DNA of 59,355 nucleotides. Source: an uncultured Lachnospiraceae bacterium (lineage in GTDB: Bacteria; Bacillota; Clostridia; Lachnospirales; Lachnospiraceae). Position 1 is the stretch's first letter. Each line of letters begins with the position of its first letter. Below, in pieces: positions 9,978-31,622 of the stretch. The notes beneath the pieces were generated by a model. That model made no database searches. It was given only the letters and a program-made list of their open reading frames with translations, and had not been told where the DNA came from. The position numbers and the translations under genes were made by a program. The stretch covers positions 1-59,355 of the forward strand of contig CANRLR010000018.1 of assembly GCA_947631505.1 (NCBI GenBank), in the 5' to 3' direction.

Positions 9978-9990
9978 TACAATGATGTCA

Positions 9991-10142
9991 GGGTCAAAAG
10001 GTCAGCACTGCTTTCGTGCAAGTACGAAAGCAGTGCTGACCTTATTGACCCACCAAACATGAGAAAGTAACCGTTTCCTGCGGAAACGTGCGGATTTCGA
10101 ATGTTTGCAGGATTGCGGGAATTGCGAAGCAATGGAGCAATC
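9991..10142. repeat. Cluster of palindromes (REP-like or structured RNA element)
   Basis: The stretch holds an 18-bp perfect stem (10000-10017 with 10024-10041, core GTCAGCACTGCTTTCGT). An outer 7-bp stem surrounds it (GGGTCAA 9991-9997 with TTGACCC 10045-10051). Next come CGTTTCC/GGAAACG (10072-10078 with 10082-10088) and a nested pair, GATTGC/GCAATC (10111-10116 with 10137-10142) enclosing ATTGC/GCAAT. The cluster lies between two convergent genes. The first stem has only four T on its reverse-strand side, so it may end transcription weakly. Its clustered design resembles extragenic palindromic repeats. Confidence 0.55.
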
Positions 10143-10156
10143 CGTGGACATCCGTT

Positions 10157-28601: not shown

Positions 28602-30284
28602 TCAATCTTCTTTTTTTCTACAGACAATCAGACAAATCACAATTGCTAATACGGATACTCCCATTGCCAAAATCGGGAATAATAGGTTCGTTGTATCTCC
28701 TGTTTCCGGTGCAGAATCCGATAGTGGTACATCTTCGTCTAAAATTGTCGTTTCCTTGCTCTTCTGTTTTGCTTTCTTCAATGAATTTTTAGAAGAGAGC
28801 GGTGTATTTTCATCATTAATCGTTGAAGTTTCATCTGTCGGTGATGGTTTCGCTGTCACCTCTTCATTTTCCGAATCATCTGCCGGAGATGGTGTTGGTT
28901 CATCCTCTGGATTATCAATAGATGAAACTGGCGGAGTTTTTTCCGGACCATATGATGGTTCCTCAAACGGTGTCGCTGTTGGAGCTTCCGTCGGTGTTGT
29001 TCCCGGCTCCACAGTTGGAGTGCCCGTCGGCTGATCTGTCACATTCGGTGTTTCCGTTGACCCCTGAGTCGGCGTTGCCGTCGGAGAAGCTGTTGGTTTT
29101 GGTGTCGCTGTTGCCGCTGGTTTCTTAGTCGGTGTAACCTCCGGTGTTGCCGTCGGCTCCTCTTTCGGTGTCGCTGTCGGTTTCGGCGTTGGTTTTTCCG
29201 TTGGTTCTGCTGTCGGTGTTGCCGTCGGTTTTTCCGTCGGCTCTGCTGTCGGTGTTGCCGTCGGCTTTTCGGTCGGCTCTGCTGTCGGCGTTGCCGTTGG
29301 TTTTTCTGTTGGTTCTGCTGTCGGCGTTGCCGTTGGTTTTTCCGTCGGCTTTGCTGTCGGTTTCGGCGTTGGTTTTTCCGTCGGCTCTGCTGTCGGTTTC
29401 GCTGTCGGAGAAGGAGACGGTGTCACATCACCGATTTTTCTGGAAATCATATGCCACTCACCACTGTTTTCCACAACACTGTCACAAACAAGCCAGCCCT
29501 CGGCAGTAGTCACAATATTAACAAAGGCACTTGGTGCAATTACCGTTGCATGCATACCGTCCGATTTAATCGTAAGATTATTCACATAAGGAGCATTCCA
29601 TATGATCGTCTCTGCCTTTTCCTGTCTCGTTTTCCTTCCGTCAATAACATCCAGCGTATAGCGGGAAATCTGAAACTCATTCTTCTCCTTGATATTGAAA
29701 ACCAAAGTCTGCTCTTTCAACATTTTAATCTTTAGAGCACCTTCCTGAACTCTGCCTTCGTGTTGTGCTTCTACAAACTTTGACATGTCTACATAAACAA
29801 CATCCTTATCGACTCCTGAAATGTCAATATTGTAATTGTTCTGATCGGTCACATCCGGTGCATCATAATCATTCTTCTTTACAACAGATGTTGCATATTC
29901 CTTCACCTCTGCAATTTTTTCTCTCGCTTCCTCTTTCACGCTCTCATCAACTACAACTACTGGTTTTGGTCCATTATTGAACCTGCACTCGCCTATCAAT
30001 TCTCCGATCCGAATTTCTCCCGGTGCATTTGCCATGTTTTCGTTGACTGTGTTTCCATTTACCTGACCGTTTGATTCATATTTCCCTGCAATAAAATTTG
30101 TTTCCATATGTGCAGTCTGATTCAACCGGTTACAGACAATTCCATACTGAACGCAGTCACCTAAGAAGGGCTCATTTCCCCTATTAGAAGCCCATGTCAC
30201 ACCGCTGATAATAGCAAAAGCTGCTATTAATGCAATCACCGCGGCACCTGCTTTCGCAACCGTACGTTTTCTAAATCCTTTCAT
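28602..30284 (-). CDS. Choice-of-anchor-A-like surface protein with PT repeats and a sortase-like tail
   Basis: A 560-residue surface protein. It has an N-terminal signal segment (AGAAVIALIAAFAIISGVTWA) and a beta-rich domain (about 45-290) with TNFIAGKYE, VVYVDMSKF, QTLVFNI, ATVIAPSAFVNI and SGEWHM, matching the choice-of-anchor-A pattern. A long Pro/Thr/Glu/Lys stalk built of PTAEPTEKPTATP units follows. The end is APETGD, a hydrophobic helix and CRKKED, resembling a divergent LPxTG wall-anchor signal. The true start is the ATG at 30284, with GGAGG 5 bases before it; the in-frame TTG at 30302 precedes that site. Function is probably adhesion or surface display. Confidence 0.82.
   Translation of the reverse strand: MKGFRKRTVAKAGAAVIALIAAFAIISGVTWASNRGNEPFLGDCVQYGIVCNRLNQTAHMETNFIAGKYESNGQVNGNTVNENMANAPGEIRIGELIGECRFNNGPKPVVVVDESVKEEAREKIAEVKEYATSVVKKNDYDAPDVTDQNNYNIDISGVDKDVVYVDMSKFVEAQHEGRVQEGALKIKMLKEQTLVFNIKEKNEFQISRYTLDVIDGRKTRQEKAETIIWNAPYVNNLTIKSDGMHATVIAPSAFVNIVTTAEGWLVCDSVVENSGEWHMISRKIGDVTPSPSPTAKPTAEPTEKPTPKPTAKPTEKPTATPTAEPTEKPTATPTAEPTEKPTATPTAEPTEKPTATPTAEPTEKPTPKPTATPKEEPTATPEVTPTKKPAATATPKPTASPTATPTQGSTETPNVTDQPTGTPTVEPGTTPTEAPTATPFEEPSYGPEKTPPVSSIDNPEDEPTPSPADDSENEEVTAKPSPTDETSTINDENTPLSSKNSLKKAKQKSKETTILDEDVPLSDSAPETGDTTNLLFPILAMGVSVLAIVICLIVCRKKED
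29161..29415 (-). repeat. 36-base tandem repeats encoding a Pro/Thr stalk
   Basis: Units of about 36 bases encode PTAEPTEKPTAT with small changes (PKPTAKPTEK variants at both ends). At least five consecutive units are readable, with mostly third-position differences. This coding repeat could vary in copy number between strains. Confidence 0.8.
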
Positions 30285-30336
30285 GCTCTCCTCCTGATTC
30301 AAATAAACAAGTCGACAGTTATATTATATTTTTATA

Positions 30337-30366
30337 ATTATAACACAGTTTTCTCCTATTTGTAAA
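30337..30366 (-). promoter_or_regulatory. Sigma-A-type promoter of the PT-repeat surface protein gene
   Basis: TTTACA (30366-30361) and a perfect TATAAT (30342-30337) on the reverse strand are separated by 18 bases. Confidence 0.65.
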
Positions 30367-30378
30367 GAACTTTCCCTG

Positions 30379-30405
30379 TAATCTTTTTTCCGTCCATGCC
30401 GATAT
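30379..30405 (+). promoter_or_regulatory. Sigma-28 (SigD/FliA)-type flagellar promoter
   Basis: TAATCTTT (30379-30386), 11 bases, then GCCGATAT (30398-30405) match the flagellar sigma consensus TAAAGTTT-N11-GCCGATAA at 13 of 16 positions. No good sigma-A -35 accompanies the nearby TATACT. The predicted start (about 30412) coincides with the first base of the leader's first hairpin. Confidence 0.65.
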
Positions 30406-30412
30406 ATATACT

Positions 30413-30513
30413 GATGACATTACTACTTGTGTCATCGCATTGACCATGGTAGGGATTTGCTATATCGCAAGGATGCGCAATAAACGCACGGATACTGCAA
30501 TATAGCTTTTTTT
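30413..30513 (+). promoter_or_regulatory. Structured leader: attenuator-like stem enclosing two CsrA-type GGA hairpins
   Basis: Hairpin 1 is GATGACA/TGTCATC (30413-30419 with 30430-30436). A later outer stem, GCTATAT/ATATAGC (30459-30465 with 30500-30506), is followed by seven T (30507-30513), like an intrinsic terminator. Inside it are CGCA-AGGA-TGCG (30466-30477) and GCA-CGGATAC-TGC (30486-30498), two hairpins that show GGA in the loop. The two GGA are 19 bases apart. An alternative hairpin, TTGC-TATATC-GCAA (30457-30470), would exclude the outer stem. I do not recognise a known riboswitch class. CsrA binding is inference. Confidence 0.5.
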
Positions 30514-30554
30514 ATGTCTGTATGTATCCTGCGTCAAGAAAGGGAGCGATTGCA

Positions 30555-31622
30555 ATGAAAATTGAAAGTAGTACAATTCAAATGGATGCGGTACATACAG
30601 CCAGCCAGAACAGCAGAACGGAGCTGAACTCAAAATCTGTTTATCTTACGGCTCAGGCAGATGCCCGCTCCAATGGGGCAGAAGATTCTGCCGGAAGCTC
30701 ATCATCAGGAGGACTTACTTTTTATCTTGGGAACAGCTTCTCTTATCAGACACGGTTTATCACAAATCGTCCGGTACATACTTCGGAGGAGTCTATGAGT
30801 CAGTTTCACAAAAGGTTATTCCACCACATTATCGAAATGATGAAGGAAATGTTAGCCGGTAACAACAGTACCCGTTTTTCCGATTCGGCCGAATACCTGA
30901 CCTACTCTGCCCAGCCGGAATCTCCTCACTGGGAAACTCAGGTATGGCATCAGGAAACTACCTATACTTCTTACTATGAAGAACGGGAAAACACCTGTTT
31001 TCGTACAAACGGGCTTGTCAGAACATCGGATGGCAGAGAAATTTCCTTTGGATTAAAGGTCGGAATGTCACGTTCTTTCATGGAGGCAACCAACCTCACT
31101 TCCGCAGAGGATACGGAAGTATTAGTAATGCGGGATCCTCTTGTGATAAATCTGGACTTACCATCCGCTGCTGTGACAGATCAGGAATTTTTCTTTGATC
31201 TGGATGCTGACGGAACAAAAGAAGCTATTTCTACTCTTGCCGGCGGCTGCGGATTCCTTGCTCTGGATAAAAACGGAGATGGCATGATCAATGATGGCAG
31301 CGAATTATTTGGAACCAAGACCGGAGACGGTTTCACAGAACTTGCCGCCTATGACGAAGACGGAAACGGATGGATTGACGAAAATGATTCTATCTTTTCC
31401 CGCCTTAAAGTATGGACCAAAGATGCTGACGGAACAGACAAACTCCTCAATCTGGCAGAAGCCGATGTAGGAGCAATTTTTCTTGGTCATATAGCAACTG
31501 AGTTCAGTCTCAACAATGATATGACCAATGAAACCAATGCTAAAATCCAAAGCAGTGGAATTTTTTTACACGAATCCACAGGTGAAGCAGGTACTGTTCA
31601 GCATGTGGACTTTGCCATTTAA
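30555..31622 (+). CDS. EF-hand-like calcium-binding protein of unknown function in a SigD-type unit
   Basis: A 355-residue protein without a signal peptide. The N-terminus is Ser/Thr/Asn-rich, with TFYLGNSFSYQTRF near 60. The C-terminal third has several DxDxDG loops (FDLDADGTKEA, LDKNGDGMINDGSELFG, YDEDGNGWIDENDSIF, TKDADGTDK), the pattern of EF-hand or VCBS-type calcium sites. AAGGGAG lies 8 bases before the ATG at 30555; the earlier in-frame TTG at 30522 precedes that site. A flagellar-type promoter and a structured leader precede it, so it should be expressed with motility genes. A flagellum-related, possibly exported, role is inference. Confidence 0.8.
   Translation: MKIESSTIQMDAVHTASQNSRTELNSKSVYLTAQADARSNGAEDSAGSSSSGGLTFYLGNSFSYQTRFITNRPVHTSEESMSQFHKRLFHHIIEMMKEMLAGNNSTRFSDSAEYLTYSAQPESPHWETQVWHQETTYTSYYEERENTCFRTNGLVRTSDGREISFGLKVGMSRSFMEATNLTSAEDTEVLVMRDPLVINLDLPSAAVTDQEFFFDLDADGTKEAISTLAGGCGFLALDKNGDGMINDGSELFGTKTGDGFTELAAYDEDGNGWIDENDSIFSRLKVWTKDADGTDKLLNLAEADVGAIFLGHIATEFSLNNDMTNETNAKIQSSGIFLHESTGEAGTVQHVDFAI

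Follow-up and report, generated by a model that had tools for sequence, protein, structure and literature searches.

Genes and leader at the locus

The stretch of DNA analysed here, 59,355 nucleotides from an uncultured Lachnospiraceae bacterium and referred to below as the window, contains a gene coding for a 355-aa protein, preceded by a leader of about 145 bases. The features of the leader and the gene are the following:

30379 to 30405, plus strand: SigD-type promoter, TAAT-N15-GCCGATAT, read directly (TAAT at 30379–30382, GCCGATAT at 30398–30405)
30413 to 30436, plus strand: hairpin 1, from the predicted fold and covariation in the genus
30443 to 30454, plus strand: mini-hairpin ACC-AUGGUA-GGG
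30459 to 30506, plus strand: outer stem A.B, GCTATAT (30459–30465) with ATATAGC (30500–30506), a weak terminator-like hairpin
30466 to 30477, plus strand: GGA hairpin CGCA-AGGA-TGCG, candidate CsrA site 1
30484 to 30534, plus strand: alternative hairpin B.C, part of the minimum-energy fold of the full leader, with a counterpart in the genus
30486 to 30498, plus strand: second GGA hairpin GCA-CGGATAC-TGC, named in the original prediction
30507 to 30513, plus strand: seven U (T in DNA) after the outer stem
30540 to 30546, plus strand: Shine-Dalgarno sequence AAGGGAG, candidate CsrA site 2 (GGA at 30543–30545)
30555 to 31622, plus strand: controlled gene (MKIESSTIQM start, backed by homologs), with an FrpC-like self-processing module

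The positions originally given for hairpin 1, the outer stem, the seven U, the two GGA loops and a small alternative hairpin (30457–30470) proved right on direct reading. The sigma factor of the promoter is presumably SigD, according to the consensus of such promoters. The first and second GGA start at 30471 and 30490, 19 bases apart, and the mini-hairpin is the counterpart of an ACC-ANGGA-NGG site found in the family, with GGA changed to GGU. The GGA hairpin 30466–30477 was compared with the CsrA SELEX consensus RUACARGGAUGU, as quoted in the available part of PMC4347634.

With regard to folding, the leader surpasses its shuffled versions in structure by no more than a modest margin (z −1.79 and −1.91), with as good a fold in 11 of 200 and 6 of 200 shuffles. 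The outer stem, placed directly before the seven U, has 7 bp, and a strict terminator scan gave no match here because the stem, rich in A and U, encloses a long interior (−11.9 kcal/mol). The predicted fold of the full leader contains not this terminator but the stronger hairpin 30484–30534, absent from the original list of features, which excludes the outer stem and can form only once the U-run is transcribed. In the folding of a growing chain, hairpin 1, the CC/GG mini-hairpin and the GGA hairpin 30466–30477 are predicted at an early stage, the outer stem forms at the U-run, and in the full leader the GGA hairpin returns together with the strong hairpin that excludes the outer stem. Nothing credible at the leader emerged when Rfam was searched with the window, with positions 30300–30700 and with seven loci of the genus, and its belonging to a known RNA family was rejected on these searches; a DNA similarity search in 41 genomes detected no relative of the leader except the window itself. 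Elsewhere in the window, positions 9983–10153 on the plus strand match the Clostridiales-1 RNA (RF01699, 117.5 bits).

A profile of 23 homologs of the controlled gene gives a match to 6sjw, the FrpC self-processing module (E 3e-11). All 23 homologs have an Asp-Pro pair, and its proline is where the match begins. Foldseek gave a match of 1.4e-9 to 6sjx; the protein model is of middling quality (pLDDT 65.4). According to the available parts of PMC5233953 and PMC7078468, FrpC is processed at Asp-Pro. The N-terminus of 97 homologs carries I3 in 96, M10 in 94, A or S at position 12 in 89 and R14 in 62, the choice of start codons having favoured M(K/R)I, which biases the first positions of these counts. 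Because this N-terminus resembles the flagellin starts of the window's genome, we would guess at flagellar export, and the product is possibly a Ca-dependent self-processing Lachnospiraceae protein exported by the flagellum. The divergent neighbour (28602–30302, minus strand) codes for a surface-type protein, in which an ice-binding-like adhesive domain is accompanied by a PT repeat and by an LPXTG anchor match below the cut-off.

Conservation and alternative pairings in the genus

The gene has a match in 21 of 39 genomes of the genus, at full length in eight, the window's genome among them, and the leader is common to all eight full-length loci. The −10 box CGATAT is kept in each of them, as are CCANGGNNGG, the letters of the GG mini-hairpin, and GCANGGANGC, those of the hairpin 30466–30477 in which a CsrA-type site had originally been recognised. 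The Shine-Dalgarno sequence also contains a GGA in all eight leaders, with AAGGGA in the window and AAAGGA in the other seven. Four of the eight keep the second GGA, the segment of which belongs in the relatives to stem B.C, and the U-run is present in the window only (1 of 8). Because the second GGA and the U-run are unconserved, the pair 19 bases apart, which had been proposed as the unit bound by CsrA, is not the conserved unit and was rejected as a functional one. That a terminator is conserved throughout the window's genus was likewise rejected, on account of the U-run. The expectation that related leaders would keep the outer stem and the GGA loops holds for the stem, in a shifted form, and for the first GGA hairpin, but not for the second loop.

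A covariance model (R1) built from seven leaders of the genus recovers the eighth at 89 bits, the next-best matches in the 39 genomes reaching at most 24.3 bits. Across 397 genomes of the family, R1 gives strong matches in two genus members only, followed by L156 with 41.9 bits. In hairpin 1, five of eight pairs change on both sides and 94.4% of the cells are paired; the counterpart of hairpin B.C has four two-sided pairs and 83.3% of its cells paired. Taken together, hairpin 1 and B.C show a covariation of 0.313 versus 0.201 in shuffled alignments, and the competing set, composed of the shifted A.B (82.1% of cells paired) and a stem C.D, shows 0.274 versus 0.204, further pair types being in both sets no more numerous than in shuffles (329 and 372 of 500, respectively, reach the count). 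Stem C.D joins an upstream segment to the flank of the Shine-Dalgarno sequence; of its 10 positions, 9 or 10 are paired in six relatives and 5 in the window. From these competing sets, the genus seems to possess a putative switch between alternative pairings that bears on ribosome access.

GGA hairpins and terminator-like hairpins across the Lachnospiraceae

Homologs of the 30555 gene are present in 39 of 150 genomes of the family, and the best 80 loci of at least 512 candidates from a search of named genomes were also used. Start codons were assigned at 126 loci, some of which represent the same gene fetched twice; five loci were dropped because the start was doubtful or the sequence before it too short, and another 24 as redundant, so that 97 non-redundant upstream regions were retained. 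In these regions, GGA is the most loop-enriched of the 64 trinucleotides (79 occurrences versus 16.9 in dinucleotide shuffles, z 15.5). The enrichment persists when the window's genus is left out (92 regions, z 17.0) or the last 25 bases are removed (z 11.5); in a control region 420–600 bases upstream (96 regions), GGA has a z of 1.8 and ranks 15th. A CGATA-type −10 box, that is of the SigD type, lies upstream of 77 of the 97 homologs, versus 14 in the control region further upstream and 10 on the reverse strand; the SigD-type promoter originally read in the window is supported. Many of the homolog leaders possess only a short GGA hairpin, such as GGTAA-AAGGA-TTTACC, together with a GGA hairpin at the Shine-Dalgarno sequence. 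Predicted terminators were found by a first scan, which missed the one of L114, in 15 of 83 homolog leaders, 12 of them with GGA at the loop. Hairpins of the terminator-like kind have a GGA loop in 13 of 24 cases in the leaders of the 97 genes, versus 53 of 343 in the remainder of these loci (Fisher p 3.4e-5).

Sixteen homolog leaders, hereafter class II, harbour a CC-ANGGA-NGG mini-hairpin (in L031 with a four-base loop), followed by a long hairpin and usually by a U-run. The model R2, built from class II leaders, matches in 29 of the 397 family genomes at E <= 0.001, with one match per genome, and 25 of the 29 lie before a homolog of the 30555 gene (8 training and 17 new). In these 25, about 42–243 nt separate the element from the assigned start, and a CGATA box precedes the element by 33–121 nt. 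The remaining four matches comprise three poorer ones (L185, L186 and L194) and a good element before a different gene (L188). In the latter case, the element (L188:1501–1564, minus strand) and a GACGATA box precede a gene coding for a 206-aa protein with no Pfam match, relatives of which are found in 18 of 250 genomes of the family.

For an alignment of 33 elements (A7), nine further leaders were added and L182 was left out. The class II hairpin is strong in these elements (median −23.1 kcal/mol) and joined to the U-run, a stable stem directly before a U-run being the arrangement by which an intrinsic terminator is recognised. In the terminator stem, 93.1% of the cells are paired, and covariation amounts to 0.581 versus 0.285 in shuffled and at most 0.132 in slid alignments, A7 having been fitted to the structure of the model so that pair counts lean that way, and the 6 two-sided pairs of the stem being reached by 54 of 500 shuffles. 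The base following the first GGA, which is free in the loop of the mini-hairpin, covaries with its partner in the terminator (C-G 16, U-A 10, G-C 1, other 6). Chance alone as the origin of the leader features was rejected by the GGA loop enrichment and the covariation.

The apical loop, taken with two stem bases on each side, contains a GGA in 30 of the 33 elements and in 15 of the 17 new ones; the long hairpin, the apical GGA and the U-run had not been required in the training set, the ends of which were trimmed after the T-run. L182, which lies before a homolog, has an apical loop without GGA, bringing the elements of this kind to 4 of 34. In the 30 elements with an apical GGA, the two GGA are separated by 16–24 bases (median 22). 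The CC and GG of the mini-hairpin are invariant in the 33 elements, partly as a result of selection because the training set was picked by the CC-ANGG-GG pattern, and its pairing rests on this invariance and on one varying pair; covariation support is weak here, with two invariant pairs and more two-sided cells in the slid version (8 versus 3).

The first GGA of class II has two mutually exclusive fates: it either lies in the loop of the mini-hairpin or is buried in the terminator base. Because the GGANGG of this base is also used by the mini-hairpin, the latter excludes the terminator and represents a candidate antiterminator. Energetically, the terminator fold has a median advantage of 10.9 kcal/mol over the mini-hairpin fold; when the last 20 bases of the chain are left off, the best fold has the mini-hairpin in 24 of 33 elements and lacks it in nine. 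The original idea of GGA sites nested in a terminator-like hairpin finds its counterpart in these hairpins across the family, though not as a conserved feature of the window's own genus. The window leader itself was not reported by R2 at E up to 1. It keeps the position of the mini-hairpin, the GGA hairpin, the outer stem and the seven U, with a first site reading GGU, and we call it a diverged class II member by anatomy and position, not by score.

CsrA, FliW and the proposed control of the leaders

The window's genome encodes CsrA (C2:64503–64658), which resembles 5dmb, and FliW (C2:64101–64466), side by side. Of the 39 genomes that have the gene, 37 contain a CsrA scoring above the Pfam cut-off, versus 43 of the 111 that lack it, and FliW is present in 36 of the 39, a co-occurrence that is not specific and for which flagella in general could account. 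Both proteins are present in all 11 class II genomes among the 150 searched for them. Two flagellin leaders of the window's genome (L216 and L217) carry CCGCAAANGGATTTGCGG, which ends 10 nt before the Shine-Dalgarno sequence AAGGAGG; this ANGGA hairpin, with 22 nt from GGA to GGA, looks like a textbook candidate CsrA site. Its occurrence near the Shine-Dalgarno sequence of the organism's own flagellins supports the view that ANGGA hairpins may serve as CsrA sites in this organism, and together with the csrA–fliW pair bears out the link to motility of the original prediction. CsrA dimers bridge GGA pairs at about such spacing.

Other GGA-containing elements were noticed in the family. A TwoAYGGAY RNA (RF01731, 109 bits) lies in L087:4795–4959, minus strand, just downstream of a homolog of the gene and convergent to it. 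Open reading frames in L188, L197, L200, L201, L202 and L205 are preceded by a recurrent motif of the type CCGCNNGGACCUUUCNGGA, with a hairpin between it and the Shine-Dalgarno sequence; Rfam searches gave no match in these loci, and the motif may represent another GGA-type leader.

On balance, we favour as the probable reading that these leaders are controlled by CsrA, through translational control combined with a CsrA-dependent antitermination switch, the window being a diverged member whose terminator is weak. What the comparison shows directly is conservation, covariation, GGA enrichment, the exclusive fates of the first GGA and the tie to one gene family; that CsrA binds, that transcription terminates and in which direction control runs is inferred. 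The window leader would be transcribed from the SigD-type promoter, and CsrA would dock on the GGA hairpin 30466–30477 and on the GGA of the Shine-Dalgarno sequence, blocking ribosomes until FliW, once free of flagellin, lifts the block. Many relatives would possess an added layer in the form of a switch at an intrinsic terminator. In class II, the first GGA would be displayed in the loop of the small, early-forming hairpin or engaged in the terminator base, and the second would follow some 22 bases later in the apical loop. If a CsrA dimer bridged both GGA during their emergence, the terminator base would stay open, with the pairs beside the U-run opened, and read-through would result; with no CsrA, the terminator would form. 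CsrA would have to act during transcription because the terminator is so strongly favoured energetically. The window's genus would lean instead on alternative pairings around the ribosome site. With a GGA in the Shine-Dalgarno sequence, CsrA would repress translation while promoting read-through, two effects of opposite sign. Against this reading stand the GGU at the first site of the window, a U-run not shared with the seven relatives, the weakness of the terminator and the silence of R2 on the window. The same applies, in class II, to the energetic preference for the terminator, the nine nascent folds that lack the mini-hairpin, the weak covariation of the latter and the four elements with no apical GGA, as well as to the unspecific co-occurrence with CsrA.

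More tentatively, and with somewhat less than even confidence, we can propose a dedicated family of Lachnospiraceae leaders in which the CsrA dimer would act as an antitermination protein at an intrinsic terminator, bridging an AYGGAY-type mini-hairpin and an apical-loop GGA. The flagellar checkpoint, i.e., FliW and the level of flagellin, would thereby be coupled to transcription of a self-processing protein that is possibly exported by the flagellum.

The closest contender, a real possibility if a rather doubtful one, is control of translation only, as for hag, where CsrA would bridge an upstream GGA hairpin and the Shine-Dalgarno sequence; the long hairpin would then only present GGA, and the U-run would be incidental. 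The many homolog leaders limited to a short GGA hairpin and one at the Shine-Dalgarno sequence fit this explanation well, as do the similar look of the organism's own flagellin leaders, the lack of the U-run in seven of eight genus leaders and the involvement of the Shine-Dalgarno flank in the alternative pairings of the genus. It leaves aside, however, the strong class II hairpin joined to a U-run, whose base contains the first GGA with covariation, an arrangement unneeded for translational control alone. That CsrA promotes termination instead, by holding the apical loop of the terminator, would agree with the GGA found there in 30 of 33 elements and with pgaA, where CsrA promotes Rho-dependent termination according to the available part of PMC7652899; we consider it unlikely, since exposure of the first GGA requires an open terminator base, so that a hold on both sites would point to antitermination.

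The terminated leader might alternatively be a SigD-dependent short RNA that titrates CsrA, in the manner of CsrB or of the TwoAYGGAY RNA, the latter being put forward, like Bacillaceae-1, as a CsrA-binding RNA in the portion of PMC4333381 at hand. Several GGA hairpins and a terminator would suit such a role, which seems quite improbable given that the matches lie, one per genome, before one gene family, that the first GGA is buried in the terminated form, and that Rfam detects at the leaders neither a CsrB/RsmZ-type RNA nor TwoAYGGAY (RF01731). A free-standing sponge RNA was rejected on the linkage to that gene family (25 of 29 matches). An unrecognised small-molecule riboswitch, originally regarded as the main alternative, now appears very unlikely. 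In the genus, the mutually exclusive covarying stems, with A.B, B.C and C.D as switching parts, and the conserved 5' core would speak for it; across the family, however, the recurring letters are the GGA sites, the stems vary freely and no Rfam family matches the leader.

Among known systems, the hag mRNA of Bacillus subtilis, the flagellin mRNA on which CsrA blocks ribosomes, is regulated by CsrA and FliW and resembles the window leader in its SigD-type promoter and in the loop GGA upstream of a GGA-containing Shine-Dalgarno sequence, CsrA and FliW being both encoded in the window's genome. The differences lie in the gene family, in the terminator with GGA in its base that class II adds, and in the alternative pairings of the genus. 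CsrA is known mainly for blocking translation, and a conserved leader with CsrA-type sites built into an intrinsic terminator would, if true, make it a classical attenuation protein. In gut commensals, the CsrA/FliW circuit would then no longer be confined to flagellin. The results also indicate that a widespread but uncharacterised family of proteins is a likely product of the flagellar regulon.

In the open-access literature, subscription journals being mostly outside this coverage, no report of the leader was recognised, and in the portions available the effects of CsrA on termination proceed via Rho or a riboswitch. The TwoAYGGAY RNA shares AYGGAY-type loops in Clostridia and, in the accessible text of PMC4333381, a proposed binding of CsrA; the leaders described here have no match to this family, are tied to one gene family and use GGA in the terminator. 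In the pgaA leader of Escherichia coli (PMC7652899, in part), CsrA similarly alters folding and consequently termination, but it promotes termination, which is Rho-dependent there. The nearest work concerns Legionella and is taken from the available part of PMC5338858. In the leader of its CsrA-tuned TPP riboswitch, a CsrA site likewise occurs together with a putative Rho-independent terminator, whereas here no riboswitch was recognised and the GGA lies within the terminator stem itself. In the gap gene, ANGGA is buried in the terminating fold and looped in the read-through fold, which CsrA favours, as we propose for class II. That single case lies inside a coding sequence and depends on Rho, whereas the elements described here form a dedicated leader with an intrinsic-type terminator, recurrent across genera.
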